A stretch of 64,000 bases of DNA from Pararhizobium gei. GTDB lineage: Bacteria; Pseudomonadota; Alphaproteobacteria; Rhizobiales; Rhizobiaceae. The DNA is taken from positions 4,144,501-4,208,500 of the forward strand of contig NZ_CP119409.1 of assembly GCF_029223885.1 (NCBI RefSeq). Direction: 5' to 3'. Each line of letters begins with the position of its first letter. Positions within the stretch are counted from its first letter, which is position 1. Under the pieces are notes generated by a model. That model made no database searches. It saw nothing but the letters and a program-made list of their open reading frames with translations, and was not told the origin of the DNA. Both the position numbers and the translations under genes were made by a program. Of the stretch, positions 36,097-56,210 are shown one piece after another.

Positions 36097-36143
36097 GCTA
36101 TTCGGACCGTAAGCAAAATTGTGATCCAAGAAGCAGGCCGTCG

Positions 36144-39608: not shown

Positions 39609-42600
39609 TCATGGAGTCAATGGTACAATATCCGTAAAGACGACCCTTTCTGTCAGTTCGTCTGCGGTTCCGGTTTGAGCTGGGAATGACGCCCCGGGGC
39701 CTCCGATAAGCTCCACTTCACGGATTCTCAGGCGCAGAAATTCCTGATCCATCGGTAGCGGCAAGGAAATTGTTCCGCCACCGAGCTCGATATGCTGGAT
39801 GCCGTTCAAAACCGGCTGCCAGGCGGGTGCATCCATCGGCGATGTCGCGTGAGCGGTGAGCGCAGCGGATTGGGTTGCCGATGTCTCCAGGATCACATCC
39901 ACACGGTTGCGGCGCGGGGCAATCGGCCCAAGTCCGTCAACGCCGACCGTAATACGTCCCGACGACCGTGTGACGGTCACTTCGCGGTCGGGGTAGAGCT
40001 GGACCATGTCGGTGAGGACGACCGGCGACAGTCTCCGATCGGATCTGTCGTCGACAACACTTTCCGGCTGGTACCGGCACACGGCAAGTTGCACGAACGG
40101 ACAGTAGGAGAGGTTGGCGATGTTTTTCAGAATGACGTCCGCATACCAGCGATTGTCGTGAAACCAGGGCTCGAAGGGCAAGGCGACAACAGTGTCCGAG
40201 ATTTCATCCAGTCTGACGCTGCCCCCTTCGCCTGAAAGCCCTGCGAAATCGGCGGGTCCGAGCCAGGCCAGCGGCAGATCCGTCCGCCAGATCGGATCCG
40301 CTCCCACACGGCTGAGAAAGCCAAAGGCCAGCGGTGGCGGGCTTTCGCTGTTTGGCCAGACGATGACTGCGAGCTTTTCGCCCTCTCCGGTCTGGAACCA
40401 GGGCCTTTGCAATTCGATACGGATACGTCCGCCCAGCCGGCGCCTTACGATCGTTCCGCTGGCGGTATCGCCGCTTTCCTCCCATAGAAAGGATGGGCGT
40501 GTCGACAGCAAGATCGGCGCAGGTGGCCTGACCGAACTGGGAATACTGACCCGGCTCTGCCCGATGCTGCCCCTCGCGACGAACCGCTCGGGCGCCTCGC
40601 TTGCATCGAAATAGCCGCGAAAGCGGGAAACGGCGGTTGCCTCATAGGCGATGACGCGATGTTTTGTATCGCCAAACGCGTGTCTTATCGGCACACCAAA
40701 ATCCGCGTCCTGGCGGGAAAGCAGGACCGACTGCACGGGAATCGCCGCCTGCAACACCCTCTGGTCGTCGGAAAACTCTGTCCAGGTCGCTTCTATATCG
40801 ACCTGGGCGGTGCTGTCGGGATCGACGCCGAGGCGCGGCGTATCGGCGACCAGCGTCGTGAATGTTTCACCAGGATTGCGGTGCGCTGTCAGCTTGCCAA
40901 CGGGATCTCTCAGTGGTTTGCGGACGGCATGCGTAAAGGTGACGGCGGTTGCCGGCGTAACCAGCGGATGACGCCCGGCTGCGAAAGCATCGACGGATGC
41001 GCCCGGGATCGGTTGGAGCGCGAAATGCGCCATCATCTCGCCGACCGGGAATGAGGAAAGATCGAGTGTCACCTGGGCCGCCGGCGGAAGCGCCACGACC
41101 AGATGTTGCGGTCCTTCTCCGTTCTGCCAGCCGATCGTTGCGGGCTGCCCCGCAGCACGTTCCTGCAGTTCGACCCGTTTGGAAACGGTGTTGGGCCACT
41201 GCCCGGTCCAGGGCCGGTCGCTCGACGGTGCCGCAAATCCCCCCGTGTCGCGGCGCACGAAGACGCGAACGCCTTGCGCTGCCACATCCGGCAATGTCGA
41301 TTCCGCTCCACGGCCTGCGGCGGCGATTGCGCTGTGCACCCGTTCCCAGACATCCTCGGAGTCCAGATCGTCCAGTGCGCCATGCTGCTCTGCAAGGGCG
41401 AGCGATGCGCGTGGTGGCCCCAGGTTGCGGCGGCTGTGGGTGCCATAGCCTGGATTGGCTGCGGCAAAGGCGGCGACAGTCATACCGCGGTCACTGCGAA
41501 TGACCACCACATGCGCCGTCTCCGACGGTCCGAGACGCCCATTTTCAGGGGCCTCGCCCGGCACCGTCACCTCCGGCGAGGCAATAGGCTCGTAGCGCAG
41601 GTAGGGCACCCGATCGGTGAAGCATCGTTCGGCCGCAGGGTCGTCGAGAGAGAGGCCGCCGCCTGCGACATCGGCGACGCGGGCACGGAAGCTGTAGCTG
41701 TGCGAAAATCTCAATCGCGGCAGGCTTCCGGCAACAGGCGCAAAATCCCAGGAAAACTGAAAGGGAACGTTGTCGATTCGTCGTCCGGAAGTCCGGGCGC
41801 CCTCGGATGCATCGAAGGCCGGGCGCGGCACGGAGAGCCCCCAGCCATCCCAGCGGGCAACGACCTCGTCGGCCCGCAGCATGTCGCCGCCGTCATCGAC
41901 CGCAGCATTATGCTTCAAATGCCCCTCTTCGACGATCGCTCCACCGGCCACCGCACTCTCGTCAGATGAACCGCCCACGCGGTAGCTGGCCCGTCTCTGA
42001 TGCAGTGATTGCCAGCCTTTGCTGGCGGTGTCCCTGACATCGATACGGTAGCCAATGACCAGATCATCCGCACCGAGCACAACATCCTCAAGTGAGGCGC
42101 GCGCGGCATTTTCCGCTGCCGCCCGCCGACGGTTGGCGAAGTCATCTGCCCGGCCCTTCTTTACCAGCATCATGCCGGCCGACCGCAGGGTCGGCATCGT
42201 GACGCGCGGGGTGGGCAGGCCTGCTTCGCCGGCTCCGTTGTCAAGTTTTCGCGCTGCCTGTCGCAGCCGCTCGACGCCATTGTCGACATCGAACGTGACG
42301 ATCCTCCAACCTTTGTCACCGTTGGCGACACGATCGTCGGTGAGCATCACCATGCCGCTGCTGATAGTGGAGGATGAAGCCGGTCGAAAGTCTGGACCAT
42401 ACAATGTCCAGGGCGAGGCGATTTGCGGCAGGAAGTTTGGCGCATCCGCGCAGGTGACGCGCAGGCTCGGCGCGCTTCCATCACGGGGAATTGCCGCTGC
42501 CGGAATGTCTATCTCGAAAATAAGGCCGAGACTTTTCAGCACCGCCGGATGTTCGCGCAACAGCGCAAGCACGCGGTGAAAGTCAGCGGGTTCCGGAACA

Positions 42601-43106
42601 CCGACCGCGGTGGACGGCCGTTTCAAAACGGGCTCCGGATCCTGCAACCAGTCTTTTTGAAGATTTGACGTGACGGCAATCTCCAGCTCTGGATTGACGT
42701 CGAGATCGGCGTGAACGGGCATCGAAGCGGCCTGCACGAATGCGTGCGAAACCCTGTCTGCAAGGTCGGCAGTCGGCACGATCTGCAGGTCTTTAACCTG
42801 GCGTTTTTCACGCAGTCCGGTCGGTTTCACGGCGATCCCACCCCCGAAGAAGCGATCCCAGACGCCGTCCTCGGCAACGATGTGAGGGGGGCTGATTATA
42901 AGAGGAGGCATGGGCGGTGTATTGCCGTCCGTCCGAAACTCGACCTCAAGACGTGCGCCCGAAATCTCGGGAGGCGGCCAATTTGCAAGACCGGCCTCGG
43001 CAAGGTTCGTCGTCGTCAATCGAGGTGAGATCAAGACTCGCAGCCTGGCGCTTGATCCGTCCGCCAAAAAGCCGTTCGGGACGGCAATCCATACGAGTTC
43101 GCTCAT
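39609..43106 (-). CDS. Giant protein of unknown function (1165 residues), last gene of the accessory block
   Basis: A 1165-residue protein with no domain I recognise. It starts MSELVWIAVPNGFLADGSSA and has no signal peptide or membrane span. It looks mostly beta-rich, with many short Val/Ile/Arg strands and Pro/Gly turns, and contains paired Arg-rich segments (about 385-400). The start at 43106 is set by an AGGAGG site about 9 bases upstream and by a one-base overlap (TGATG) with the 1110-residue gene, which implies equimolar, coupled synthesis of the two. Length, lack of secretion signal and neighbours suggest a structural or scaffold component. Function is unknown. Confidence 0.8.
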   Translation of the reverse strand: MSELVWIAVPNGFLADGSSARLRVLISPRLTTTNLAEAGLANWPPPEISGARLEVEFRTDGNTPPMPPLIISPPHIVAEDGVWDRFFGGGIAVKPTGLREKRQVKDLQIVPTADLADRVSHAFVQAASMPVHADLDVNPELEIAVTSNLQKDWLQDPEPVLKRPSTAVGVPEPADFHRVLALLREHPAVLKSLGLIFEIDIPAAAIPRDGSAPSLRVTCADAPNFLPQIASPWTLYGPDFRPASSSTISSGMVMLTDDRVANGDKGWRIVTFDVDNGVERLRQAARKLDNGAGEAGLPTPRVTMPTLRSAGMMLVKKGRADDFANRRRAAAENAARASLEDVVLGADDLVIGYRIDVRDTASKGWQSLHQRRASYRVGGSSDESAVAGGAIVEEGHLKHNAAVDDGGDMLRADEVVARWDGWGLSVPRPAFDASEGARTSGRRIDNVPFQFSWDFAPVAGSLPRLRFSHSYSFRARVADVAGGGLSLDDPAAERCFTDRVPYLRYEPIASPEVTVPGEAPENGRLGPSETAHVVVIRSDRGMTVAAFAAANPGYGTHSRRNLGPPRASLALAEQHGALDDLDSEDVWERVHSAIAAAGRGAESTLPDVAAQGVRVFVRRDTGGFAAPSSDRPWTGQWPNTVSKRVELQERAAGQPATIGWQNGEGPQHLVVALPPAAQVTLDLSSFPVGEMMAHFALQPIPGASVDAFAAGRHPLVTPATAVTFTHAVRKPLRDPVGKLTAHRNPGETFTTLVADTPRLGVDPDSTAQVDIEATWTEFSDDQRVLQAAIPVQSVLLSRQDADFGVPIRHAFGDTKHRVIAYEATAVSRFRGYFDASEAPERFVARGSIGQSRVSIPSSVRPPAPILLSTRPSFLWEESGDTASGTIVRRRLGGRIRIELQRPWFQTGEGEKLAVIVWPNSESPPPLAFGFLSRVGADPIWRTDLPLAWLGPADFAGLSGEGGSVRLDEISDTVVALPFEPWFHDNRWYADVILKNIANLSYCPFVQLAVCRYQPESVVDDRSDRRLSPVVLTDMVQLYPDREVTVTRSSGRITVGVDGLGPIAPRRNRVDVILETSATQSAALTAHATSPMDAPAWQPVLNGIQHIELGGGTISLPLPMDQEFLRLRIREVELIGGPGASFPAQTGTADELTERVVFTDIVPLTP

Positions 43107-46100
43107 CAGCCAAAAGCCTCCTGGTAGCGGCGCCATTGCGCGCGTTGCATCTCCTGCCTGCCTGCATCTCCCATAGGCGGCGCGGCAGATGCGGTGATGA
43201 ACTGTCTGTCGGCCTCGAGCGAGCGCGTTTCGTCTCCCGCCAGCACCCATTCGCCGCTGTCCAGTTCGACCGATTCCGAGAAGAGTGTCAGATCCACTTC
43301 GATGACCAGCGTCGCCCGGCCCACAAGGCGATTGCGCTGCTGCAATCCCAGAACAGGATCGACGACCTGTTCTTCGATGTAATCCAGCGTGATGACAAGC
43401 TCGACGGAAACCGAAACCAGACCCAGCACGCTGAGGCTTCCGCCGATGCGCAGGAACGCCGACAGCGATACCGCACCGTCGGCCAGTTCGAAGCGTATCC
43501 CGCCGAGAGCATGGACTTCGCCCGATGCGACAAGAAAATCGACGGCGACGGCAGCGCCGAATTCCATCGAGGCCTCCAGTCCCGTCAGGCCTTTTGGCCC
43601 GATGGTGAAGTCGATATAGCCTCCGCCGCCGAACATCAGGACGCTCAGATTGAACGGATTGTCACGCCGGGCAAAACCGAGCGAGACGGTCACGGGCTTG
43701 CGTCTGAAGGGAACATCGACGCCGATATGGATTGCGACATTGCGCATGGCGAAGACGCCGGAGCTCACACTGGGGACGGTGAGCGTATAATCAGCCGTTA
43801 CACCGTCCGTCGTTGCCCGGATGGCTGGCCCTCCCGACCCGACAAGGCTGCTGACCTTATCCAGCAGCGGCTTCAGCAATTTCAGAGCGCCGAAGAACGA
43901 AACGTTCAGTCCGCCCATCGCCATGTCCGGCATTTTTCCAGGCGCAAGGGTAAGCGCCAGCGTGCGAAAATCGAGGCGGACAAGCGGACTTGCCTCGGGA
44001 ATGGCGAGGGCGAAATCATCGATCCGGCACACCGTCTCGGAGATTGGGGCCGAGCGGATGACAGTCAAGTCCATCTTGCCGTTTGGTCCTGCCTTGAACA
44101 TCCCCGACGAGCGAAGTGGCAGCGCCCATTTCATCTTCACGCCCGATGGTATGGTGCCGTTCAGGATGGGGACGATCTCGGGTGTTCCGGGCAGGTCCGG
44201 GAGGGTACCTGCGACGAGGTCGCGCATTGACAATCCGAGCAGGGTCGTGTCGTTCAGCACACTGCTGAGATCGCTCCCGAAGTCTGGCAGGGCAGCCTTT
44301 GCGATGGGGCCAAGGTCTGGAGAGATGACATCCGCAACAAAATTTGGAACGACCAGTCCCCCGGAGCGGTCTGCATTGTCTTGAAAGTCGATGCCGACCG
44401 GCACCCGCGGCCTCAAGGCAATCGCGGCCTCCAGTCCCCGATCGAGAAAGTCTTCGGTGAATTCGAGGGGAACAAGGCCGATTTTTTCGGGAAGCAGTGC
44501 GCGCAGCGCAGGCAATTCGGCCAGCACCTGATCAATCACGGCGCGAAATCCGTCGCCGTGCGGCACGGCGGCAAAATTCATTTGATGCACTTCGTGAACG
44601 TCGCCGGGGCGCTGCACGACGGCACGAACGAGGTCTATCCGCTGCCCGTCAAGGGGAACGATGCCGCTCGTGCCCCACATGTCATGTACTCTCGACAGAA
44701 TATCGTCGTTGGATAGTGCTCTGAATCCAAAGAATTCTTCGGTGTCCGGAATATCGATATCGCGAATGAACACGGCCTTGACCGTGAACCGTATATCGCC
44801 GTTTGTCCCGGCAGCCCGCACCGGGAGGACCAGTGCATCGGCAGAGACTGTTTTGGGCGCGAAAAAAACGGGGTGACTCGCATGCGTTGCCGCAATGGCG
44901 TCCAGTCTTGCCTGTATCTCGATCGATGCCAGTGCTGCTGGATCGCCGAGGGCAGCCAGCGCGTTTATATCGCGCGGAAGCATTGCGAATTCCTGCTCCA
45001 CATCAGCCTGAGCCTGGGCGCGCGATGCTCCGGCGCTGGCGATTTCTGCCTCCTTTGCCCGGATCAAAGCAAATAGCTGCGCGGGAATGAAGCCCGAATC
45101 CGACATTATCGGCATGTCCGGAAAAACGGGCCGATCGGAGCCGATGACATCCGCTTCGATGAACTCCGGCGGCGGCGGTGGCGGATCGACTGGAGGGTCC
45201 GGTGGAATCGAAGCAATCAAATCGGCGAGCTCGGACTGCAACTGAGCCAAGATCCCATCCCAACTGTTGAGAATTGGCACCGACCCCATCTGCAGTTCGA
45301 AATACTCCGCAAGGGACCGCGGTTGAGCAAACAGGGTTTCGAACACCTGCCGTTTGAATTCCGTCAGGTTTGACCGGAGTTTTTCCAGAAACTCCGAATT
45401 CTGAGCCTGTGTATGCGTCTCCCAGTTCGGCTCGGCGATCTCGAACTGGCTTCCCATGATCTCGATTGCGTCGAACGGAAGCCTGCGCGCAAGTCGAGGA
45501 TCAGACGCCGGACCGACGACGGGTTGAAGCACGGAGAGAATGGTGTGTCCACGCAGACCGGCGACTGCCCGCTCCTGCGAACCTCGAACAGGGGCGAAGC
45601 CTCGCACCGCGCTTTCCACGACCCTTGCCCTATGGCCGAAGGGATAGAGGACACCGGTTGTAACGACCTGCACATTCATGTCGCGGCCGAGAACCGTGTT
45701 GTGGGTCCAGTCGAAATCAGGCCTCGACAACCCTGTCATGAGGGAGCCGCCAAGGGCCGAGAGCTCCATGTTTTTCAGCCAGGGCAACGCTCCGCCGCCA
45801 GTCTGCGCAAGCGCGACGATTCCGCCGCGATGGGCAGCCGACAGCGGCGAAAAACCCGGGATTTCCTCGCCCGGCATAAGGTCTGCCAGCGGCAACAGGG
45901 ACAACGCCGCCTCGCCGCGAATCGGGTTCAAGCTGCGCAATCGCGCGCGCCACAGTCCAGTCGTTCTATCGGCAGACGATACCGGGAATGCCGCGCATTC
46001 CACACCGAGCCGCGACTCGCCGTCTGAGGCCAGGATCGAGGACACGAGACGCCAGGGCAATTCGATCCGCGTTGGGGCGTCCGGTGTCGCGTTTCCGCCC

Positions 46101-46438
46101 TGAAGCTCGGTGTCGACATCACCGAGTGCTGCCAGAATTCCCTCGATGGTGAGCGAAATTTCGCGAGTGGCCGGCGGCCGGAATGTCAGGACGCTTGGGC
46201 CGGACAGTCGCGCTCCCGGATCGCGCAGGGGCTCTCCCTGAATGAGGTTTTCCAATTCACTGGCCGAGAATTTTCCCTCCCCGACGGCTTGCGGCGGGAA
46301 GGTCAGCGAAATCGTCGCGTCGGCAGTTCTGGGAACAAGCCGGGAGGGAACACCGGGCGCGACGTCATAGCCGGCCCAGGACACGCCCAGAACGACGAGA
46401 TCATCGCTGCGGGTCAGCAAATATTGCGGTAGCAACAT
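43106..46438 (-). CDS. Giant protein of unknown function (1110 residues), polyproline hinge and Gly-rich beta region
   Basis: A 1110-residue protein without signal peptide. A proline hinge (PPDPPVDPPPPPPEF, about 410-425) separates two large parts. The second part ends in a repetitive hydrophobic, glycine-rich region (about 880-1060: LMFGGGGYIDFTIGPKGLTG, LEASMEFGAAVAVDFLVASG, FLRIGGSLSVLGLVSVSVEL). This alternating pattern suggests amphipathic beta-strands, possibly membrane-interacting. The ATG at 46438 is chosen for the AGAGGAG site 7-8 bases upstream; the frame opens slightly earlier at a TTG. It is translationally coupled to the 1165-residue protein. I do not recognise the family. Confidence 0.8.
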   Translation of the reverse strand: MLLPQYLLTRSDDLVVLGVSWAGYDVAPGVPSRLVPRTADATISLTFPPQAVGEGKFSASELENLIQGEPLRDPGARLSGPSVLTFRPPATREISLTIEGILAALGDVDTELQGGNATPDAPTRIELPWRLVSSILASDGESRLGVECAAFPVSSADRTTGLWRARLRSLNPIRGEAALSLLPLADLMPGEEIPGFSPLSAAHRGGIVALAQTGGGALPWLKNMELSALGGSLMTGLSRPDFDWTHNTVLGRDMNVQVVTTGVLYPFGHRARVVESAVRGFAPVRGSQERAVAGLRGHTILSVLQPVVGPASDPRLARRLPFDAIEIMGSQFEIAEPNWETHTQAQNSEFLEKLRSNLTEFKRQVFETLFAQPRSLAEYFELQMGSVPILNSWDGILAQLQSELADLIASIPPDPPVDPPPPPPEFIEADVIGSDRPVFPDMPIMSDSGFIPAQLFALIRAKEAEIASAGASRAQAQADVEQEFAMLPRDINALAALGDPAALASIEIQARLDAIAATHASHPVFFAPKTVSADALVLPVRAAGTNGDIRFTVKAVFIRDIDIPDTEEFFGFRALSNDDILSRVHDMWGTSGIVPLDGQRIDLVRAVVQRPGDVHEVHQMNFAAVPHGDGFRAVIDQVLAELPALRALLPEKIGLVPLEFTEDFLDRGLEAAIALRPRVPVGIDFQDNADRSGGLVVPNFVADVISPDLGPIAKAALPDFGSDLSSVLNDTTLLGLSMRDLVAGTLPDLPGTPEIVPILNGTIPSGVKMKWALPLRSSGMFKAGPNGKMDLTVIRSAPISETVCRIDDFALAIPEASPLVRLDFRTLALTLAPGKMPDMAMGGLNVSFFGALKLLKPLLDKVSSLVGSGGPAIRATTDGVTADYTLTVPSVSSGVFAMRNVAIHIGVDVPFRRKPVTVSLGFARRDNPFNLSVLMFGGGGYIDFTIGPKGLTGLEASMEFGAAVAVDFLVASGEVHALGGIRFELADGAVSLSAFLRIGGSLSVLGLVSVSVELVITLDYIEEQVVDPVLGLQQRNRLVGRATLVIEVDLTLFSESVELDSGEWVLAGDETRSLEADRQFITASAAPPMGDAGRQEMQRAQWRRYQEAFG

Positions 46439-46549
46439 CAAACGACTCCTCTCGTCGCATTTCAAGCGCGCACCGGGAACTGTGCCGGAACCCGGGTTTC
46501 GATTATCCTGCCAAAACCGGGTGTCGGCAGTGACCTCCCCGTCATTGGG

Positions 46550-46936
46550 CTATTCGACAATTTCCAGATTGCTGTTGCTGTTGACGGCGCCGTCGACGGT
46601 ATTTCCGTCCGCGATGACGCGGCAGATGAGATCGACATGGGTTCCGGCCTGAAGGAAACCTGCGATATCGGCCGCAATCGTCAGCGTCTCATTCGGCTGG
46701 ATCGTAACGGGATCGCTCATGACTGAAAAGCCGGCAAAATCCTGATCTGTCGTGAAGAAGCCGTCCGGCTTGATTTCGAACTCGATCGTCACCTCGACAT
46801 CGGTCACGTCGCAAACATAGGAAATGGTCGTGACCGCATGGGTGAGCATGCTTGCCTTGAAAAACGAGGCGCAGCTTGATCCATCTTCGGAAAAACAGGG
46901 CGCCTGAACCTGGAAGCAATCGGTAAAGTCGGTCAT
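46550..46936 (-). CDS. Small Cys-containing beta-rich protein (128 residues)
   Basis: A 128-residue acidic protein beginning MTDFTDCFQVQAPCFSEDGS, with five cysteines (DCF, APCF, SSCAS, YVCD, LICR) and a likely immunoglobulin-like beta pattern (VEVTIEFEIKPDGFF, DPVTIQPNETLTIAADI). An AGGAG site lies 7 bases before the ATG. No signal peptide is present, so the cysteines may be reduced or bind a metal. It sits between the hemopexin protein and the 1110-residue giant, 31 bases after the former. It is perhaps a small subunit or ligand of one of them; this is inference. Confidence 0.7.
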   Translation of the reverse strand: MTDFTDCFQVQAPCFSEDGSSCASFFKASMLTHAVTTISYVCDVTDVEVTIEFEIKPDGFFTTDQDFAGFSVMSDPVTIQPNETLTIAADIAGFLQAGTHVDLICRVIADGNTVDGAVNSNSNLEIVE

Positions 46937-46967
46937 GGGAAACTCCTCATGGTTGGGATGAAGTCGG

Positions 46968-48254
46968 CTAATGCGAGACGGTCGGCCCGATCTGCATGTG
47001 GATATGGTTGTTATGGTCGTGGCGAAGACGTTGGTTGTCGGCGCTTCCGTCGCCCCAGTAGTCCGGGCAGATAACGAAACCGCCTTCGCCGATTTCTGTC
47101 GGAGGCCAGACATTCCCGCGGTTGCATTCGCACTCGTAGGTGCCGAAGGCGTAGGCGCGCTTGAAGAGATTGTGCGCAACGGGCGCCGTTGCCGCGTCCA
47201 GCCTGTATGTGCCCATCGGACCCTCCGGCCGGGCGCCCCAGTCACGCGTGACCTGCAGGTCGAATGCCGCATCGTCAACGGAGCCGCTAAGGCCAGACAG
47301 ATCCAGTGCTCTTCCCTGGTTGTGGCAATCGTTGGGATTGGAGCCGCCGTGGCCGATGCCGAGATGGCGGATCTCGGTGACGGTGGGATGGTCCGCATTC
47401 ATCCATCGCCCGAGCCGCTCGAGCGCCACCAGCATGCGGGGATCGAGATTGTCGATCGTCTGGCTCTGCAGGTTGAGGTCGTTGACATACTCGACCATGC
47501 CGATGCGGCGCGGCTCGACGGTGGCCGGCTTGTTCGGATTGAGCGAAGCGACGCTGCCATCCGCAGCGTGTGTAACCGCAGTCCAGGCTGTCTTGAACTG
47601 GTAGAACCCGCTGTTTGCCTGCCAGACTGCGATCTTGGCGGCATCGTCCCGCGACAGGTCACGCGCCGGCGTCAGCAATCCCCTTGGCACGCCAGCGGGA
47701 GCGAAGGATGCAATCGGCCGGTCGACACCGTCGCTGGTATCGGCGGCGATATCGAAGATGCGAAAGACCTGCCCCTTGAAGAAATAGACCTCGTTGCCTC
47801 CGGGGTAGAGGGCGGCATCGACGCCATCGGCCCATATGCCGTTCCACGCACCGGCAATGGCACGGGGATATCCCTCATCCATGCGGTCGAAGCCGATGTC
47901 CCAACGCACATAGTCGCTGCCGCGGAAGATGTAGAGCTTGCCGTTGGTCCAGTTGATGCAGGCCTCGATGCCACTGGTCCACAGGCCCGGCCAGAAGTCG
48001 ACGATGGGGCGGATGTAATCGACCGTGTCGGTTACGCAGTCGTAACGGCAATAGTCGGAGCCTTTGAAAAAGAATGCCTTGTTGTAACCCCAGTAGACGC
48101 CGGCATCGACCCCATCGGGCCACAGAGTGCCCCAGGCGCTCGAGATCGCCACGTCTGTGGCCTCGCAAACGCCGGTCAGGGCGTCCCAGCGCTGATAGGT
48201 GGAACCGGAGAACAGGTAATGTTTGCTGTTTGGCCAGGCGATTGCTGCGTCCAT
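46968..48254 (-). CDS. Hemopexin-repeat protein with C-terminal M15-like peptidase motif
   Basis: A 428-residue protein. Residues 1-189 are four hemopexin-type repeats of about 47 residues, each with the pattern DAxxxWxxxKxYxFxGxxYxRxD followed by a WxGLW-like end. After a linker, residues about 250-428 carry CHNQGRALDLSG (His311, Asp318) and a terminal HNNHIHMQIG (His417/His419). That spacing matches the HxxGxAxD ... HxH zinc site of M15 D-Ala-D-Ala peptidases. Hemopexin propellers bind proteins or ligands, so this looks like a targeted peptidase or structural adaptor. No signal peptide. The ATG at 48254 has an AGGA site, 10 bases after the preceding gene's stop. The peptidase assignment is motif-based only. 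Confidence 0.75.
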   Translation of the reverse strand: MDAAIAWPNSKHYLFSGSTYQRWDALTGVCEATDVAISSAWGTLWPDGVDAGVYWGYNKAFFFKGSDYCRYDCVTDTVDYIRPIVDFWPGLWTSGIEACINWTNGKLYIFRGSDYVRWDIGFDRMDEGYPRAIAGAWNGIWADGVDAALYPGGNEVYFFKGQVFRIFDIAADTSDGVDRPIASFAPAGVPRGLLTPARDLSRDDAAKIAVWQANSGFYQFKTAWTAVTHAADGSVASLNPNKPATVEPRRIGMVEYVNDLNLQSQTIDNLDPRMLVALERLGRWMNADHPTVTEIRHLGIGHGGSNPNDCHNQGRALDLSGLSGSVDDAAFDLQVTRDWGARPEGPMGTYRLDAATAPVAHNLFKRAYAFGTYECECNRGNVWPPTEIGEGGFVICPDYWGDGSADNQRLRHDHNNHIHMQIGPTVSH

Positions 48255-48264
48255 GGTCTGATCC

Positions 48265-49578
48265 TCATACGGTTGGGAGATTGGGGTCGCCGGCAGGCGG
48301 AATGACGGGCATGCGTTCGCATAGCCAGCCGATCGACTGCATGCCGGAGACCGTAATGGCCGCCGAACCGGCATCGTAATCGCGCCCGAGCAGCGACAGC
48401 GGACCGAGCGATGCCGAACTGGACAGCGCCTCGCGGTCGTCGTCGGTCCACTGACCCTTGATCTGGAGGTCGCGGATCAGGATGCAGCCGGTCGGGACCA
48501 GCGCCATGGGCGCCGTCAGCGAAGATGCATCCGACAGGCTTCCCCTGGCGAAGCCCGGCAAGTACCAGCCCGGCAGGCTCAGCAGGGACTGCGAAAGCCA
48601 TGGCCGATGCAGTTGCACCAGACACAGCCGAAAGGAGATGCTGAAGGAATCCGTCGAGACAGGTTTCGGCGTTGCATTGGCAAGCACCAGGTCGTTCAAC
48701 GCACTCAGACGTTCCGCGGTAAAAAGCCGGCGTTTGTCCATCCGGTGGTTGCGCACCAGTCGTGGCGCGGGCTCGACGGCCACACGGGCGGCATCGCGCC
48801 TCATTGCAACACGCTGCGCAGTCAATGAGCCCACCCGTGTGATGGGAGATTCGACGGCTTCGACCTGGCGCAGGAAGCGGGCATCGATCGCGCCCGAACG
48901 TTGCAACCGGGCATGCGGCTGAAGAGGTTGAACCAGATTCAAGGGAGCATCCGCACCAAGGAAGGACGGTGTTTCCGTCGCGTCGAACAGTTGGATATCG
49001 AGCGGTTTCGACAGGATCTGGCGTTCGGTGGAAGGCAGCGTCTGCCACATCGTCAATGTGGATGCGTAGCGCCCCGGCACCCGCTGCGTCGGCGGCGGAT
49101 CATCCGCGGCGCCAATTCTGATCGTCGTCCAGTTGCCGTCGGCAGAGAGATCGTACCAGTTGGCGGGCGTTGCCATGACCGGCCGGTAGCCGCCCATGCC
49201 AGGTTGCAAGGCCTGGACCTCCACATCGAAGTCATCACTTGCAATGCGTTTGACGGCGCCCAGCATTTCGGTCGTCGCAGGGTCGATCGGCGCGGCGCCG
49301 GAAAGGAGCACGCCATATTGGTTTTCCACCGTCAGCATCCGGCGCGAAAACAGAGAGTCGATCACCTCCGGGAAGGTATCGGCATGGGCCGAGATGAATT
49401 CACGCGCAAGCTCCGGCGACAGCGTGCGAGCCTCGTCGGCCAGCCTGAAACTCTGGTCGGGAATGGGCGTGCCGGGCTCGAACGCAATAAGTTTCGAATT
49501 GCCCGCCACGCCCGCTCCCCCGAGATGGTCGAGAACGGTGTCGCGCAGTGCGTCAAAGACGTGTTCGATGGTCGACAT
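48265..49578 (-). CDS. Unknown protein (437 residues) sharing a C-terminal module with its upstream neighbour
   Basis: A 437-residue protein without signal peptide or known domain. Residues about 311-437 align with residues about 375-547 of the protein encoded upstream. The shared pattern is RLCLVQLHRPWL...GWYLPG versus GLCTIVRPWL...NWYLVG, then ILIRDLQIKGQWTDDD versus LVVRNVSIHSTDWGED, and finally QSIGWLCERMPVIPPAGDPN versus QIIGFLSDVVPAGPDKDDP. Its N-terminal 310 residues differ. The ATG at 49578 has a strong GGAGGAGG site. The two probably form a hetero-complex or parallel effectors. Confidence 0.72.
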   Translation of the reverse strand: MSTIEHVFDALRDTVLDHLGGAGVAGNSKLIAFEPGTPIPDQSFRLADEARTLSPELAREFISAHADTFPEVIDSLFSRRMLTVENQYGVLLSGAAPIDPATTEMLGAVKRIASDDFDVEVQALQPGMGGYRPVMATPANWYDLSADGNWTTIRIGAADDPPPTQRVPGRYASTLTMWQTLPSTERQILSKPLDIQLFDATETPSFLGADAPLNLVQPLQPHARLQRSGAIDARFLRQVEAVESPITRVGSLTAQRVAMRRDAARVAVEPAPRLVRNHRMDKRRLFTAERLSALNDLVLANATPKPVSTDSFSISFRLCLVQLHRPWLSQSLLSLPGWYLPGFARGSLSDASSLTAPMALVPTGCILIRDLQIKGQWTDDDREALSSSASLGPLSLLGRDYDAGSAAITVSGMQSIGWLCERMPVIPPAGDPNLPTV

Positions 49579-49610
49579 CGCGTCCTCCTCCAATCAGATG
49601 TTGCCTTGCT

Positions 49611-51254
49611 TCAAGCGAGTGTCGGATCGTCTTTGTCAGGGCCGGCGGGAACGACGTCGCTGAGGAAGCCGATGATCTGGGTGCCCCTGATCGACAGCGT
49701 CTGGCCATCGAACGTCGCGCCGTAATTCGACGTGCTGTCGTTTGCCGCCCAGCCGGACGATTGGCCCGAAGAGTTTGAGCGCGACGTCTTTCCCGTGCCA
49801 CCGAAATTCAGGAAGCCGAGGGCGACGCCAACCGCGGCGCCAGCGCCACTTTGGGAGCTCTCGTCAGAGCCCTGGCCGCCGCCATAGGCGTTCTGAAGGG
49901 TCTGTCCGTCCTCGCCCCAGTCGGTCGAATGAATGGAGACGTTGCGCACCACCAGGAACTGCTGCGGGATCATCGGCAACAGCTTTTCCTGGCTGTCCGC
50001 CTGGCCGTCGATTGTTCCGTCGCTGACCGAGTTCTTCTTGGTACCGACAAGGTACCAGTTCTTCAGGAAAAACAGGTCGCTGATCAGCCAAGGCCGGACG
50101 ATGGTGCACAGGCCGTATTCCAGGCTGATCGTCATTCGCTTGGCGGAATTCTTGAAGTTGCTGGTAAAATGCGACTCGCTCGAATTCTGCCAGGAACCGC
50201 CTGAGCTTGAGGAACTGCCGGTTGCGCCGACGGTGATAAAACCGAGCGAGACACCCGCGCTGCCCGACTTGCTCTTGGCATGGCGCTCCCAGGACTGCTG
50301 GGACTTTGAATTCGCCTGGGCGTCGGAATGGCGGGAGTAGGAGCTGCTGTCGACCGTCAGCACCTCAAAACCCTGATTGTCCTCGAAGTCGCACCAGTTG
50401 GTCGGCAGGATCAGTGAGTAAGGCATTGCACCGGGCACGATGCCCGACAGTCCGAGGTTCCAGTTGTCGTAAACGTCTTTTGCCTTGGAGATCATATGCG
50501 CCTGCATCGGGACGCCCACCGATGTGATGGTGTCGAGGGCGCGCTCGACCTTTGGCCCGCCCTCCGTCTGCAGCGCATCGCGCGCCTGATTGACAGCCTG
50601 CTGGTAGGTGGCCGACACGACCGGCCAGGCCTGCGCCTTGGCAGGATCGAGCAAGGCCGACTGGTTGGCGGTGGCGTAGTCGGCCTTCGCCTTTGCCAGC
50701 GCCTGCGCATTGGCGACATAGTTTCGGTAAATTTTGGTCTTGCCGATGATGGCGCCGTCCTCGTCCTTTTCGAAGAGGATCTTTTCGGCGGTCTCCACCC
50801 GCTCCTTCACGTCCGGAGCCATCTCTGCTTCCGTCCCGGGCTGCATCCCCTTCAGGATCGACTCATAGGCGATGTCGAGGTGGCGGCCTGTCGGATATTC
50901 GCGGTAGGTGCCGTCGGTCGTCAACTCGAGCATGGTCCGGCACAGCATGGAGGTTTTCCACGCGGCCTGCATCGCTTTCAACATCCGCGGGTCCGGCGCC
51001 GGAACCGGCGGAGCGCCTTCGACAGCAGCTGCCGGCACCGCACCATTGGCAACCGCGTCCTGAAGCGAAGCGCCGCCGGCGGGAGACCATGGACGGTGGT
51101 AGTCGTCCTTCCATATCGGCATGCCCAGCAGAAGCTGCGAGTAGACCATGCTGCCCAAGGGTTTGTCATCGGTGCGAGCCGGCGACATCTGCTTGATCCG
51201 GTCGACAAGCTCGTCAAAGATCGTGAGAACTGCTGCTCCAGGTTCGTTGCTCAT
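49611..51254 (-). CDS. Unknown protein (547 residues) with duplicated Gly/Ser-rich motif
   Basis: A 547-residue signal-less protein. The N-terminal half is helical (about 90-260, Ala/Lys/Glu-rich, including AKAKADYATANQSALLDPAK). The C-terminal half is beta-rich and contains two copies of a Gly/Ser motif: GVSLGFITVGATGSSSSSGG (about 334-353) and VGVALGFLNFGGTGKTSRSN (about 475-494), each inside a Ser/Asn-rich stretch. Residues 375-547 form the module shared with the 437-residue neighbour. Alternating small polar and hydrophobic residues in such loops recall membrane-insertion hairpins of pore-forming proteins; this is speculation from pattern only. It is the first gene after the terminator at 51.55 kb. 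Confidence 0.72.
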   Translation of the reverse strand: MSNEPGAAVLTIFDELVDRIKQMSPARTDDKPLGSMVYSQLLLGMPIWKDDYHRPWSPAGGASLQDAVANGAVPAAAVEGAPPVPAPDPRMLKAMQAAWKTSMLCRTMLELTTDGTYREYPTGRHLDIAYESILKGMQPGTEAEMAPDVKERVETAEKILFEKDEDGAIIGKTKIYRNYVANAQALAKAKADYATANQSALLDPAKAQAWPVVSATYQQAVNQARDALQTEGGPKVERALDTITSVGVPMQAHMISKAKDVYDNWNLGLSGIVPGAMPYSLILPTNWCDFEDNQGFEVLTVDSSSYSRHSDAQANSKSQQSWERHAKSKSGSAGVSLGFITVGATGSSSSSGGSWQNSSESHFTSNFKNSAKRMTISLEYGLCTIVRPWLISDLFFLKNWYLVGTKKNSVSDGTIDGQADSQEKLLPMIPQQFLVVRNVSIHSTDWGEDGQTLQNAYGGGQGSDESSQSGAGAAVGVALGFLNFGGTGKTSRSNSSGQSSGWAANDSTSNYGATFDGQTLSIRGTQIIGFLSDVVPAGPDKDDPTLA

Positions 51255-51551
51255 GGGATCGCCCTTTGTGTTGGTGTTGACTGATATCGGCAGAGACGCG
51301 ACGCGCATTGCACCAGCAGTGGGGCAATCACATTGTTGCTTCTTCTCTGTTCTGTTTGCTGTTCGTCAAAACGGGTTCGCCGGGATGGCACGGCGGCTGA
51401 GATACGTCGTCCCGCACGGTCTTTTGCTCGATTGAGCTGCGCGCCGGACTGAACCTGCTGTCTATGGGAAGATACTAAGCAGGCGGCGTTTCCTGAACGC
51501 TATCTGGCCGTCAACGCAGCGTCAAAAGCGCAGGCTGAATAGACTTTCAAT
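51255..51551. other. Intergenic region upstream of the structural genes of the accessory block
   Basis: About 300 bases without a credible gene, lying downstream (minus-strand sense) of the terminator after the protease gene and upstream of the 547-residue gene. By position it should hold the promoter of the six-gene set running down to 39.6 kb. I see no box pair that I would defend. Confidence 0.4.
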
Positions 51552-51579
51552 AAAAAAGGACCCGCGAGCGGATCCTTTT
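51552..51579 (-). terminator. Intrinsic terminator after the S8 peptidase gene
   Basis: On the minus strand, AAAAGGATCC pairs with GGTCCTTTT (one bulged base) across a 7-base loop, and the right arm runs into TTTTTT. It lies 22 bases after the protease stop codon. It should stop transcription coming from the regulator, phosphatase and protease genes. Confidence 0.8.
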
Positions 51580-51601
51580 GACGAAAGACGTCAGAGCGTG
51601 T

Positions 51602-53302
51602 TCAAGCGGTCAGCGCAGCCTGCACGGCCTTCGCCGCATCCAGCAATCCAGCGCCGAAGAAATAGCTTGGGTCGATGACGTCTTCGTTGTCCTCGTTCAT
51701 GCAATCGGGCGTCAGGGGCCGGAAGCCCGGGGCCACATGGCTGCTGCAACTCGACGCCGCTTCCAGAATATGTTTCACCGCAACACCGTCCAGCTTCACC
51801 GCTCCGCTATGCGCGGCACGATGAGCCCGCTGCACCAGAGCCGCGACGCCCCCGACAAGGGCCGCCGCTCCGGACGTTCCGCCAAAGCTCGTATAATAGC
51901 CGCCGCCAATACCGGGATTGTTAGCGGAGGGGAGCCGCGACGACCAGGGCGCCTTGCCCTCGTCATAGCCAAAGACGCCCGGGAGATCCGTTGTCAGAAG
52001 ACTGAAGTAGGAATGGCAATATTCCTTTCCGGAACCTGCGGTATACAAATGACTGCCGACGAAGGGGGAAAGACGATCGACGCGCAACTGATGCCGGTTG
52101 AAAACTTCGCTGTCATCGGAAGGCGCCACGAGGGTCAGTCCCTCTCCATAATTGCTGTACCCCGCTCGAAAACCTTCGACCGTGACGGCCCCGACCGCGA
52201 CAATGCCATTGTCGGCAGCTGCCAGGCTCGCCGGATAGATCAGCTGGCTTTCGCCGCTGTTGCCCGCAGCACAGATGACCGGTATCTTCCGGCTCACGCC
52301 GATAATGACGCGCTTGAGGATTTTCCATAACCTGTCGGGATTGCAGCCTGGCTGCGGTGCTTTCGGCTCCAGTTCAGCCGGTCCCTCTTCGGCAAGGGCA
52401 ATCCGCGCGAAGAGATCCGCGGCATCACGACTGGCCCAGCGTTCCAGATCTGCTTTGAGGTCATTTTTCGGCTCGATGACGCCCCTTCGCGGATCGGGGA
52501 TGCCGCGAGGCACGACGATGACATCGACATTCTGAAGATAGGCATAGAGAAACGCCGCGATAAACTGTTTGGCATCCTGTTCAAACGACGTCCGGATGTT
52601 GAGAAGGCGGGAAAAGGGATCGGCGCCGAAATAGGGTAAAAGATTGAGATTTTTGTTGGGCCGCGCTTCGGTCGAACCGGGACCGGTAAAGATATCCTCG
52701 GGTGGTGAGGGACTGCCGCTGTCCGGGAAGAAGACTGCGGAGGGCTCTCCGGCAATCAATCCGGCGCAGGCCGTGCCATGGGAGGCGAACAGACCATTGA
52801 CATCGAGAAGGCGACGCAAGACACCCTCCGAAGACACGTATTCTGCCACGATATCGTCCAGATATTCCTTGTCGTCGTTTGACAGGCCGAAATTTCCAAG
52901 CGCCGATATATCGAGCCCTGAAAAGAAATGCTGTTTTTGCTCCCGGAAAGCGCTGTCCGTATCGTCAAGTATGTCGAGCGTGCGGGCACCATAATTGTGC
53001 GTCGTCAGATCGATCGAAGCGCCGTGGTCGATCCGGGTCGCAAGGTTGGGATGATCGGGTGAAATTCCCACGTCGATGAGGGCCACCCTTGCCGGCGACA
53101 CCGGACCGGCATCAGCGATCGCATCCCATACCGTGGTACTGATGACCGGCGACGGACTGTTGCGCAGCGCACTGTCTGAGGCAGCGGGCACCGCCGTGGG
53201 TGCGGCCCCGAAGTCGGCGTTGACAATGCCGAGGGCTGCCAGATGCCAGAGATAATAATACCCGACAGGCGCGGGCTGCATTTCATCCGATTGCGGTGCC
53301 AT
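51602..53302 (-). CDS. Subtilisin-like serine peptidase (S8) without signal peptide
   Basis: A 566-residue S8-fold peptidase with all catalytic elements: Asp77 in VALIDVGISPDHP, His175 in SHGTACAGL, the oxyanion Asn348 in AAGNSGE and Ser477 in GGTSGAAALVGG. A large insert of about 100 residues lies between the Asp and His motifs, and another of about 170 between His and Asn. There is no signal or propeptide, unlike secreted subtilases, so it acts in the cytoplasm or leaves the cell by an unknown route. Proteolytic maturation of the neighbouring proteins is a plausible role. The ATG at 53302 has an AGG site 7 bases upstream. An intrinsic terminator follows the gene. Confidence 0.9.
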   Translation of the reverse strand: MAPQSDEMQPAPVGYYYLWHLAALGIVNADFGAAPTAVPAASDSALRNSPSPVISTTVWDAIADAGPVSPARVALIDVGISPDHPNLATRIDHGASIDLTTHNYGARTLDILDDTDSAFREQKQHFFSGLDISALGNFGLSNDDKEYLDDIVAEYVSSEGVLRRLLDVNGLFASHGTACAGLIAGEPSAVFFPDSGSPSPPEDIFTGPGSTEARPNKNLNLLPYFGADPFSRLLNIRTSFEQDAKQFIAAFLYAYLQNVDVIVVPRGIPDPRRGVIEPKNDLKADLERWASRDAADLFARIALAEEGPAELEPKAPQPGCNPDRLWKILKRVIIGVSRKIPVICAAGNSGESQLIYPASLAAADNGIVAVGAVTVEGFRAGYSNYGEGLTLVAPSDDSEVFNRHQLRVDRLSPFVGSHLYTAGSGKEYCHSYFSLLTTDLPGVFGYDEGKAPWSSRLPSANNPGIGGGYYTSFGGTSGAAALVGGVAALVQRAHRAAHSGAVKLDGVAVKHILEAASSCSSHVAPGFRPLTPDCMNEDNEDVIDPSYFFGAGLLDAAKAVQAALTA

Positions 53303-53350
53303 GTGTAACCTCATTCGCGCGTGAGCAGTCGGTAAGGAAAGGGATGCGTT

Positions 53351-54334
53351 TCACACCCACTCCTTGTGTACGGCATTGAAACTGGCGGTGAATGCGTCCC
53401 TCAGATAGGGGGCAAACCGCCGGGCGAGATCACGGCCGGCAGCCGTATCGCTTGGATAGTGGAGGCCCGCCCATTCCCGGTTTTCTGCAACATTCTGCGC
53501 AATTTGCGTCAGTTCTTCCGTCGCTGGGTGTTCCGGAAGGATCGTGTTGAACGCAAACGCGATCGAAAAGCACTGGAATGCATGGTTGCTCGGATAAGCC
53601 TCGTGAGCAGGCACCGCCAGAAGCGGTCTCAGGCGCGGTTCGAACTGATTGGGCCGCAGCCGATTGAATTTGCTTTTGTAGAGAAGCCCGACATATTCGC
53701 ACGCCGTCAGGATGCTCTGGAAGAGACCTTCGGTTTGCTCGTAGCCGCCAATATTCTCGATATAGAGCGGTCGCGAAAACTCGCTGACGGAAAGCGACGC
53801 CTCCTGCTGGATATCCGATAGCCGCCGCGCCCGCTCACGGTCGCGCTTTTGCATCGACAGGAGAACTTTGGTTTCCAGCCGTGTGAAATCCGGGCCGGGT
53901 GGCGGCGGGATATCCAGCATTTCCCACGTGAACCGCGCTGCCGCCGTAAAGGCGTTTCGCGAGGGTTGTTGGTGCAGCCGGCGCAATTCGAACGCCGGAA
54001 TCAAGGAGGCGTCGCCAGAACCGGATTCGCCGAAGGTCACCTTGTTCTTGTTTTTATTCTTGTTCTTGTTCTTGTTTTTATTCTTGTTGAGGGACGCCTT
54101 GTTCAGCACCGACTGGTTGGCGACGCCGGCGCTCATGACGCCGGCCGTATGCAAGACAGCCGCGGCCATCGGTAGAGCCGCGATGTCGGGCTGGTCCTCT
54201 GCCGGCATCGCCAATTCCGGCACGATCGAAAGGACCGGCATGGGAACACATGGCGATACCTGGTCAGCGTCCACCTGAAAGCGATACCTGTTCAAGAACT
54301 GAACCAGAGATGTTGTCGGCGTTCCGTCGGCCAT
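53351..54334 (-). CDS. PAP2 / vanadium-haloperoxidase-fold phosphatase with Asn-Lys repeat
   Basis: A 327-residue protein with the three PAP2 motifs: K220-x6-R227-P228 (KSKFNRLRP), PSNH (248-251) and R286-x5-H292-x3-D296 (REWAGLHYPSD). Enzymes of this fold hydrolyse phosphomonoesters or, with vanadate, oxidise halides. It lacks membrane spans and a signal peptide, so it resembles the soluble acid-phosphatase/haloperoxidase branch. Residues 83-98 are eight Asn-Lys pairs encoded by a tandem repeat. It lies 48 bases upstream of the protease gene and 43 bases downstream of the regulator gene, likely co-transcribed with both. Confidence 0.85.
   Translation of the reverse strand: MADGTPTTSLVQFLNRYRFQVDADQVSPCVPMPVLSIVPELAMPAEDQPDIAALPMAAAVLHTAGVMSAGVANQSVLNKASLNKNKNKNKNKNKNKNKVTFGESGSGDASLIPAFELRRLHQQPSRNAFTAAARFTWEMLDIPPPPGPDFTRLETKVLLSMQKRDRERARRLSDIQQEASLSVSEFSRPLYIENIGGYEQTEGLFQSILTACEYVGLLYKSKFNRLRPNQFEPRLRPLLAVPAHEAYPSNHAFQCFSIAFAFNTILPEHPATEELTQIAQNVAENREWAGLHYPSDTAAGRDLARRFAPYLRDAFTASFNAVHKEWV
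54041..54088 (-). repeat. Tandem 24-bp duplication of hexamers encoding (Asn-Lys)8
   Basis: Forty-eight bases consist of two perfect 24-bp copies, each made of four hexamers in the order CTTGTT, CTTGTT, TTTATT, CTTGTT (plus strand). The period is a multiple of three, so copy-number change would lengthen or shorten the Asn-Lys tract without a frameshift. Confidence 0.95.
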
Positions 54335-54377
54335 GATCTGTACCCTTCATGTGGAAAGCGGATTGATCTGAAGGAAA

Positions 54378-56210
54378 CTACCGGAGCTTCACGCCAGCCT
54401 TTGAGAGGCCGGCAATCAGCATCCTGCCGCCGGCAGTGTTCAAAAGCGGATAGCGATTGTCTTGCAGAGCCTCGATCGAAAAGTTTGGCTCGACCTTTTC
54501 CAGTCGCTGGACGCAGTCTCTCGCAAGGTCCATTTCATTGCGATGCGCGTAGCTTGCGGCGAGATACCGCAAAAGAGAATTGAAGTCGGGCCGCATCCTC
54601 AACGCCTCCTGGCCTGCCGAGATGGCTGCGGCGTGGTCGCCCGCCAGCGCCGAACTGATGCATTTTGTCGTATCGAAATAATATTTGTGGGCACTGTAGT
54701 ACCCGAGATTCTGCACCCAGTTGGCCATGGCCGCCGCGTTTTCAGGCTGCCCGGCATAGCAATGCAACATGGAATAGAGATCCCAGCCGAGCGGTTGGAC
54801 CGGGTTGAGACGTATCGCCCTTTCGAACAGGCCGGCGGCATAGTCATATTCGCAAAACAGGAACGAGTGCACATGCCCGATAAGAGCAAGCGCCACGGAA
54901 TTATTCATATCGAGTTCCAGTGCTTTCCGGGCATAGAACTGGGCTTCCTCGACGATTGTCGAGTCGTATGCATTGAATCGCTGACCAACGCGAAAGGTTC
55001 TGATGAAGGCAAGCCACGCATAGACGGACGCGCTTGGCCGATCGGACGCAAGGGTGTGCAGGATGATCTCGGCTCGATTCAGATCGTCCCGGGACAACCG
55101 GAAAATCAAATTCACCGCTTCGACCAGACTGGTCTCTCGCTCTAGGTCTCCTCGTTCGGGCCGAAACAGAAAAAAGGCGTGGACCTGATCGATCATGTGG
55201 TTGATCAGGCCATGCACTTGGTGGGTTTCACCCCGCTCCAGCCGCCGCATTTCCGCGATGCAACTGTCCTTCCAGACCAGACTGTTATCGGCCAGCCGCA
55301 GGACCCTCAGGACGATCAGGGCCGTTTGACCGGAAAGCGTCAGTTCCAGTTGTATGCCAATCGGTGTTGCCAGTGAAACCCCGCCGTCGAATTGATCGCC
55401 ATGGGGCAAACCCGCCCATCCTCCGCCGCCAAAGGAGAAATCGGTAACGCGGATGTCGGCCCCGTCAGCGATCGTCTTTGCGACCAGGCTCATCATTTCG
55501 GACGCAAGAATCTGTCCGCCATCGCTGCCTGCCGCTATGCGCGGCGGCAGGAGTGCAACGACCCATTGGCTTGATTTTGCTCCGACGATCGGGCTTGAGG
55601 AACCTGTTCCAAGACTGGAGCCTTCGCCTGCCGTCCTGTCGGTCTCCGGCCTTGTGGTGGTTGCCGGCACGAGGGGTGTTCGCTCCCTGTCATCGCGTGC
55701 CAATTCAAGTTTCGGTTCGAATTTGTGCTGGAGTTGCCCCTCCTCGTATCGACGCTGCCAGACCTGTCTTTCCAGCATCAACCATTCTTCGAACTCCGGG
55801 TCGCGCACGTCCACGCCTTCCAGGAAATGTTCGGCGGCCAGATCGTCCTGACCGCCCGCATGGGCGTTCGCAAGAATGTCGTCGGTATCCAGCCCGACGA
55901 GGTCCATCCGAAGGGAAACGGTATTCTTGTCGGTCACCAGGAGATCACGGGCGTGGCCCAGGCACTTGCGGATATCCAGCAGGGCCTGGCGAAGGCTTGC
56001 GGATGCCTGATCCTCAGGCCTGTCGCTCCATAGCTTGTCCCGGAGCCAGACCCTGGAGCGTGATCCCCTCAGGGAAAGGGCCAGCATGGCCAGAACGGCC
56101 TGCGACTTTTGCGACCGTGGAGTCAAAGCCTTTCCCGCACGGTCAGTGATCGCGAAGGGTCCGATCAGATACATGCGATAAGCCGCTTCTGGCTGCTGCC
56201 TGCGGTCCAT
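54378..56210 (-). CDS. SARP-like transcriptional regulator (winged helix-BTAD-TPR)
   Basis: About 610 residues. The N-terminus has an OmpR-type winged-helix DNA-binding domain (about 12-100: MYLIGPFAITDRAGKALTPR, SQKSQAVLAMLALSLRGSRS, WLRDKLWSDRPEDQASASLR). A BTAD-like helical domain follows (about 105-165, FLEGVDVRDPEFEEWLMLER). A middle region is of unknown role, and a TPR-type C-terminus (about 430-580) contains VALALIGHVHSFLF and LFERAIRLNPVQPLGWDLYS. Such proteins activate accessory clusters and sense ligands or partners through the TPR part. The frame stays open to 56615; MDRRQQ at 56210 is chosen because it directly precedes the DNA-binding domain, but its ribosome site is weak. First gene of the accessory block. 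Confidence 0.82.
   Translation of the reverse strand: MDRRQQPEAAYRMYLIGPFAITDRAGKALTPRSQKSQAVLAMLALSLRGSRSRVWLRDKLWSDRPEDQASASLRQALLDIRKCLGHARDLLVTDKNTVSLRMDLVGLDTDDILANAHAGGQDDLAAEHFLEGVDVRDPEFEEWLMLERQVWQRRYEEGQLQHKFEPKLELARDDRERTPLVPATTTRPETDRTAGEGSSLGTGSSSPIVGAKSSQWVVALLPPRIAAGSDGGQILASEMMSLVAKTIADGADIRVTDFSFGGGGWAGLPHGDQFDGGVSLATPIGIQLELTLSGQTALIVLRVLRLADNSLVWKDSCIAEMRRLERGETHQVHGLINHMIDQVHAFFLFRPERGDLERETSLVEAVNLIFRLSRDDLNRAEIILHTLASDRPSASVYAWLAFIRTFRVGQRFNAYDSTIVEEAQFYARKALELDMNNSVALALIGHVHSFLFCEYDYAAGLFERAIRLNPVQPLGWDLYSMLHCYAGQPENAAAMANWVQNLGYYSAHKYYFDTTKCISSALAGDHAAAISAGQEALRMRPDFNSLLRYLAASYAHRNEMDLARDCVQRLEKVEPNFSIEALQDNRYPLLNTAGGRMLIAGLSKAGVKLR

Follow-up and report, generated by a model that had tools for sequence, protein, structure and literature searches.

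Large multi-protein assemblies in which binding parts are combined with exchangeable enzymes are presumably the closest functional parallels to the system described here, and we take the Tc toxin complexes and the extracellular contractile injection systems to be of this kind. Parts of the system resemble the hemopexin-repeat proteins (PF00045) and a cassette of rhizobia encoding a SARP-like regulator, a PAP2-superfamily protein and an S8 subtilase. The window, i.e. the whole stretch of 64,000 nucleotides of Pararhizobium gei that was analysed (contig NZ_CP119409.1, positions 4,144,501 to 4,208,500), carries nine open reading frames (ORFs) on the minus strand at 39609-56210. They encode proteins of 610, 327, 566, 547, 437, 428, 128, 1110 and 1165 residues and are named g1 (SARP-like) to g9 (1165 residues) in reading order, in agreement with the nine minus-strand genes and the four sizes (437, 547, 1110 and 1165 residues) given in an initial annotation of the block. 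The two giant proteins g8 and g9 have no sequence match to Tc toxins or contractile injection systems in Pfam, NCBIfam or PHROGs. Protein g6 shares the repeats of the hemopexin proteins and differs from them by a tail with LAS-like motifs and by the adjacency of its gene to g8. Relatives of g1-g3 occur in the same order in the cassette of rhizobia, which elsewhere is followed by HEXXH/ThiF genes, a stump of g4 or neither; g4-g9 do not stand behind it in the stretches fetched.

The pairing of g8 with g9 across distant bacteria is established at the level of gene order. Searches of protein collections yielded 127 relatives of g8 and 166 of g9. Giant loci were collected in named genomes with g8 alone; one of the 43 (L048) was dropped because it lacked a match to either the g8 or g9 profile. 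All remaining 42, from the four phyla Actinomycetota, Bacteroidota, Bacillota and Pseudomonadota, possess g9 on the same strand, separated from g8 by less than 700 bp in 33 loci (in 16 of them the genes overlap by 4 bases) and by one WD40-type gene in 9. Outside this set, L061 holds a g8 fragment whose neighbour fails the g9 profile and which therefore counts against a universal pair. The distance matrices of g8 and g9 correlate with r = 0.94 over 41 pairs, including the window and two genomes beyond the set (0 of 2000 permutations as high), and with r = 0.87 in the 32 closest pairs, a correlation to which shared descent contributes. The two proteins presumably also touch physically. They are not paralogues of each other by profile comparison (hhalign probability 0.6 %).

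In the tree, the copy in the window groups with those of Hymenobacter and Bacillus (support 95/94) and is separate from the copies of Sphingomonas and Bradyrhizobium, which group with that of a Mycobacterium bin. Among the relatives of P. gei the genes are rare: counting its own genome, 3 of 151 genomes have g9, and of 385 genomes of the class 4 have g8, one of these four matching positions 368-486 only. Acquisition of the giants by transfer appears likely, though not proven. In Rhizobium ruizarguesonis (L065, 3836-16103) the g8 relative is divided between two distinct genes; beyond g9, after one small gene, lies a gene for a patatin-like phospholipase.

No match for g8 or g9 was obtained in Pfam, NCBIfam (both at E up to 1), PHROGs or PADLOC, and none of meaning in PDB, where the 60 matches listed for g8 (spike, keratin, helical toxins; best E 2.7e-4) were taken as coiled-coil likeness because all fall within profile positions 304-533. 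The Pfam and NCBIfam results led to rejection of a Tc-toxin reading. For a phage-tail or contractile-injection reading, PHROGs provided no match for g2 and g4-g9; g1 touches a tail family at E 0.07 and g3 a protease family. No relative of g8 was found in IMG/VR or phage records, and one g9 relative (P0269), whose UniRef name begins 'Baseplate protein J-li', gave no Pfam match with an E of 1 or less. An anti-phage defence reading was likewise rejected, PADLOC giving only a subtilase model for g3 (E 2.5e-4). Titles and starts of abstracts in the literature revealed none on the pair. The initial annotation, which had recognized no known system in the block, was thus borne out for the giants. Judged by sequence they match no described system, and a kinship with one may exist at the level of the fold. 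Their pairing holds in bacteria as different as a rhizobium, Streptomyces, Bacillus and Hymenobacter, and, absent from the four family libraries scanned, they point to a conserved function that is unnamed there.

The features of the block are as follows.

54378..56210, minus strand: g1, SARP-like regulator, 610 residues, AfsR-like N-terminal part and C-terminal TPRs (NCBIfam AfsR, Pfam TPR_19)
53351..54334, minus strand: g2, PAP2-superfamily protein of acid-phosphatase type, 327 residues (Pfam PAP2, PDB 7f17)
51602..53302, minus strand: g3, S8 subtilase, signal peptide not evident, 566 residues (Pfam Peptidase_S8)
51554..51579, minus strand: predicted intrinsic terminator 3' of g3 (inverted repeat, RNA folding)
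51255..51601, minus strand: 347-bp gap between g3 and g4, supposed site of a promoter for g4-g9 (coordinates)
49611..51254, minus strand: g4, 547 residues, unnamed family (237 relatives)
48265..49578, minus strand: g5, 437-residue paralogue of g4 (hhalign, counterpart in Neorhizobium petrolearium)
46968..48254, minus strand: g6, hemopexin propeller and C-terminal domain with what we take to be LAS/M15-like zinc motifs, 428 residues (Pfam hemopexin)
46550..46936, minus strand: g7, 128 residues, no family assigned (ORF call)
43106..46438, minus strand: g8, 1110-residue giant with coiled-coil-like centre and conserved C-terminal region (127 relatives, 24-row alignment)
39609..43106, minus strand: g9, 1165-residue giant, constant neighbour of g8 (166 relatives)

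Pfam matches over cut-off were obtained for g1 (TPR), g2 (PAP2), g3 (S8) and g6 (hemopexin), the last three upholding the identities first assigned, and none for g4, g5, g7, g8 and g9. NCBIfam, PHROGs and PADLOC provided no name for any of g4-g9; g4 received two weak NCBIfam matches far under cut-off. The block is best explained as three older modules joined together: the cassette g1-g3, the paralogues g4/g5, and g6 and g7 with the giants g8/g9.

Propellers are recurrent companions of the giants. Protein g6 has three hemopexin stretches (E 2.3e-17), its closest PDB structure being the hemopexin domain of gelatinase A, followed by the C-terminal tail in which zinc motifs, presumably of the LAS/M15 type, were read by eye. 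The adjoining g7 has one Pfam match under cut-off (SEN1_barrel, E 0.034). In L008 and L034 a hemopexin gene immediately precedes g8. The L008 protein shares the g6 tail; that of L034 has a different tail, amidase-like by eye only. A WD40-type protein of about 690 residues was detected in 13 of the 42 giant loci with a profile built from ten such proteins (Pfam WD40 was confirmed for the L014 copy). Its gene is located between the giants in 9 loci, stands some 3.2 kb upstream of them in L024, and is fused to the C-terminus of g8 in L028 and L044 and to the N-terminus of g9 in L022. DUF346, which we take to be a lectin-type propeller, exceeds the Pfam cut-off at the g8 N-terminus in 7 of 10 extensions scanned, an eighth (L037) falling just under it, and hemopexin is fused to a g8 relative in P0035. 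Overall, a propeller was recognized near or fused to the pair in 21 of the 42 loci, part of the neighbours and extensions having been scanned. Outside this count, a 1685-residue protein of Catellatospora (L030, 1610-6667), encoded about 3.3 kb upstream of g8, displays repeated matches to the WD40-type profile.

When the N-termini of the 120 g8 relatives listed were read by eye, 10 showed a Tat-like signal, i.e. a twin-arginine motif with a hydrophobic stretch (P0072, P0075, P0081, P0085, P0091, P0095, P0099, P0102, P0107 and P0110), all ranking 72nd or lower; a g8 copy on a Streptomyces plasmid has one as well. The neighbours of the pair were defined as genes on the same strand with gaps of less than 400 bp, and the 82 genes obtained were reduced to 68 by removal of very short genes, the propeller genes of L028/L044 and the 1706-residue neighbour of L061. 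Among them are 3 astacin, 3 PG_binding_1, 2 trypsin-like, 2 M23 and 2 hemopexin proteins and 2 short-chain dehydrogenases. Ten neighbours picked by hand include M23 and trypsin-like (L020), S8 (L030), C70 (L024), extensin-like C-terminal (L061) and PG_binding_1 (L016) proteins. None of these enzyme families occurs among the 25 of 91 families listed for 63 distant control genes (84 before removal of short or edge-cut genes). Since 25 of 82 neighbour families and 25 of 91 control families were listed and the picked scan has no control, the apparent association of hydrolases and proteases with the giant pair is suggestive rather than a test. In Hymenobacter (L009, 7323-8804), a 493-residue protein encoded three genes upstream of the giants is perforin-like by eye; Pfam lists only TrkA_N for it, under cut-off.

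The reading we tentatively prefer, at somewhat less than an even chance, is that the giants form an export-competent complex which is aimed at a surface by a propeller and equipped with wall- or protein-degrading enzymes. In this complex g8 and g9 would be the two large subunits, and a beta-propeller protein would be a frequent third part (hemopexin in the form of g6 here, WD40 or DUF346 elsewhere, sometimes fused to g8 or g9); the fusions to either subunit indeed predict a three-part complex. It would be assembled folded and act outside the cytoplasm. The propeller would attach to a ligand on a surface, and an enzyme that is fused or encoded nearby (in P. gei the g6 tail, which resembles a zinc peptidase) would attack wall or protein of the target so bound, presumably another microbe. 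The paralogues g4 and g5 would be accessory parts, and the SARP-PAP2-S8 cassette would supply control, through g1, and processing enzymes. A doubtful but possible extension is that g8-g9 form the centre of a kind of bacterial particle not described before, in which a propeller chooses the target and the cargo consists of exchangeable enzymes, either wall hydrolases or proteases. It would leave the cell in folded form (by Tat in one branch, by another route or lysis here), and in P. gei its genes would have been placed behind the control cassette. If the complex truly acts on other cells, it would provide soil bacteria with a new way to reach them.

Several observations weigh against this reading. 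The 71 best-ranked g8 relatives and g1-g9 display no export signal in a crude hydropathy screen; the highest 14-residue mean within the first 60 residues of g1-g9 is 1.56, so that no strong N-terminal hydrophobic stretch is present and the absence of signal peptides noted initially was confirmed to that extent. The M15-like enzyme claimed at the same time did not hold up beyond motifs seen by eye: the g6 tail has no Pfam match and its best PDB match (E 1) is an unrelated chain, and the tail of the L034 hemopexin protein has neither a Pfam nor a PDB match. No propeller was recognized in 21 of the 42 loci, and many giant loci have no same-strand gene adjoining the pair. Furthermore, the control genes include one thermolysin-type and one CAP protein, the comparison of neighbour families has the limits given above, and related loci (L020/L038) were counted twice.

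The cassette g1-g3 recurs in rhizobia, with no giants in the stretches fetched. The SARP-type assignment of g1 stood in part: its N-terminal part matches the NCBIfam AfsR model (E 3.3e-5) at 22 bits, far under the cut-off of 1430, and a search for BTAD (PF03704) gave no hit to g1 with an E of 1 or less and 0 matches genome-wide. TPR_19 scores 25.5 bits (cut-off 25). Four plasmid copies are 54-76 % identical to g1, the one at 76 % being annotated in RefSeq as 'SARP family' (Phyllobacterium zundukense); of a fifth copy, one piece has 46 % identity over 377 residues. No repeats readable as a SARP site were found upstream of g1. Protein g2 belongs to PAP2 (PF01569; 29.8 bits, cut-off 27.2), is nearest in PDB to acid phosphatases (7f17, E 7e-12) and has relatives in 104 plasmid records (66 Rhizobium). 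Eight Asn-Lys repeats are encoded in its N-terminal part (54041-54088), and its L057 relative has a similar NK run. Protein g3 belongs to Peptidase_S8 (E 5.4e-17; 62.5 bits, cut-off 21.8), with what we take by eye to be the catalytic motifs; its relatives occur in 71 plasmid records (62 Rhizobium), 69 of the 71 at 60-80 % identity, and at E 1e-60 in 5 of 199 genomes of the family, that of P. gei counted.

Ten cassette loci were fetched, five plasmid regions via a g2 match, four genomes via g3 and one via g4. The order g2-g3 is conserved in all ten, preceded by a g1 relative in nine (in two pieces in L071); none was found ahead of g2-g3 in L082. The 19-26 kb fetched per locus contain neither g8 nor g9. 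Behind the cassette, HEXXH 'peptide modification' and ThiF genes are located in L070 (11973-14590), L072, L073 (these three annotated), L080 and L081, a possible peptide-modifying cluster, and a short ThiF fragment in L071. A small ORF containing Cys-Cys accompanies these genes in L070 and L072. The cassette is known from RefSeq and GenBank annotations; no title on it was found among titles and starts of abstracts.

The 547/437-residue proteins g4 and g5 are paralogues, as had been proposed, with a phmmer E of about 1e-5 and a shared C-terminal region (hhalign of profiles 97.9 %, E 3.7e-13). A kinship of g4 with g9 was rejected (hhalign probability 0.1 %). The protein collection has 237 relatives of g4. 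Pfam provided no family over cut-off: for g4 itself, DUF7776 (E 0.01) and DHFR_1 (E 0.27) remained below, as did DUF7776 in 7 of 28 members. The gene is rare in whole genomes: in the family 2 of 297 have a match (P. gei and, as the stump, G295), and in the order 2 of 397 (P. gei again and G796, the latter matching in part). A plasmid of N. petrolearium carries, in succession, a SARP-like gene (BTAD and Trans_reg_C matches, both under cut-off), a gene for 149 residues and relatives of g4 (36 %) and g5 (30 %); neither g8 nor g9 occurs in the 25.6 kb fetched.

In P. zundukense (L069) and L057, a member of the same family, conservation extends from the cassette through the hairpin behind it and the intergenic DNA into the start of g4, of which about 35 codons are retained. 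DNA identity to the window is 72-74 % over the cassette, and at g4 92 % over 38 bp (L069) and 74 % over 121 bp (L057). In both, g4 breaks off as a stump (L057:9872-10006, L069:12057-12236) and is followed by a similar 78-residue gene, for which an empty search of the P. gei genome is uninformative. Loss of g4 is the simplest reading because g4 relatives retain the stump N-terminus as part of the whole protein; the two stumps may stem from one event. The cassette and g4 are evidently old neighbours. A similar small ORF is readable between the S8 gene and the stump in both loci, with no counterpart noticed in the gap of the window. Ties of g4 to the giants outside the window are limited to two: in Streptomyces L014, a g4-like N-terminus of 63 residues lies just upstream of the giant pair (E 1.9e-11), and a 99 % relative of g4 and a 76 % relative of g8 both have longest contigs of 139700 bases and are therefore probably encoded on one contig.

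The tight spacing with one-base overlaps originally described applies to g8/g9, the sole overlap (one base), and not to the whole block: the gaps from g1 to g9 are 43, 48, 347, 32, 10, 31, 111 and -1 bp. Just past the g3 stop, within the 347-bp gap, a 12-nt inverted repeat (92 % complementary) is predicted to form an RNA hairpin followed by a U run with -22.6 kcal/mol, compared to a shuffled mean of -13.0 (z -3.4; 1 of 200 shuffles as good), and L069 and L057 have a similar sequence at the same place 3' of the S8 gene. A consensus scan listed neither this hairpin nor a promoter in the gap, and detected 16 terminators in the whole region, no excess over 16.6 in shuffles. Due to the predicted hairpin and the gap, two transcription units, split after g3, are likely, though not proven, rather than one tight operon.

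Three other explanations were considered. One possibility, on the unlikely side, is a chance mosaic in which g8-g9 are self-sufficient and the cassette, g4-g5 and the giants lie side by side without joint function. It would account for the finding that, by phmmer, the 42 giant loci contain no full relatives of g1-g5 or g7, the hemopexin protein alone among g1-g7 having full-length-type relatives (2 loci), and for the cassette (10 loci) and g4-g5 (1 locus) standing without g8 or g9 in the stretches fetched. Among the longest contigs of the matches listed (120 relatives each), g8/g9 share 12 sizes, g4/g8 one and g4/g9 none. The mosaic is harder to reconcile with the 139700-base contig, the g4-like N-terminus upstream of the Streptomyces giants, and the shared orientation and mostly short gaps of g4-g9; that the block is more than chance has support because two relatives keep the cassette and then the g4 stump. 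The one assembled machine envisaged by the initial annotation therefore persists for the giants, with their pairing, correlated distances and propeller fusions, and not for all nine genes, as the cassette and the 547/437 pair occur without them; similarly, the giants are not scattered singly, whereas their expected co-occurrence with the S8 and 437/547 genes fails.

Remodelling of the producer's own envelope, with PAP2, S8 and the g6 tail modifying its surface under control of g1 and all proteins staying with the cell, is improbable. PAP2, subtilase and LAS-type proteins are known in envelope biology, the lack of evident signal peptides in the crude screen would fit, and glycosyltransferase and polysaccharide pyruvyl transferase genes a few kb away (34768-37952) suggest a surface-polysaccharide region. 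Yet g2 is nearest to soluble acid phosphatases, and the pair is rare and patchy among relatives (counts above), unlike housekeeping envelope genes. Equally slight are the chances of a role in peptide or protein maturation, in which the cassette would work on whatever is encoded downstream: the HEXXH/ThiF genes in a number of rhizobia, g4-g5 or the giants in P. gei. The five cassettes followed by both genes speak for it, and L082 and L083, with neither gene downstream in the stretch fetched, against it.

Gene starts in the fetched loci derive from a purpose-made gene caller. No tRNA genes were detected in the window. Of the flanking genes scanned, those on one side of the block encode a GreA/GreB-type protein and a pyruvyl transferase, those on the other a transporter set. 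The G+C content of the block, in 2-kb steps, ranges from 0.575 to 0.64.

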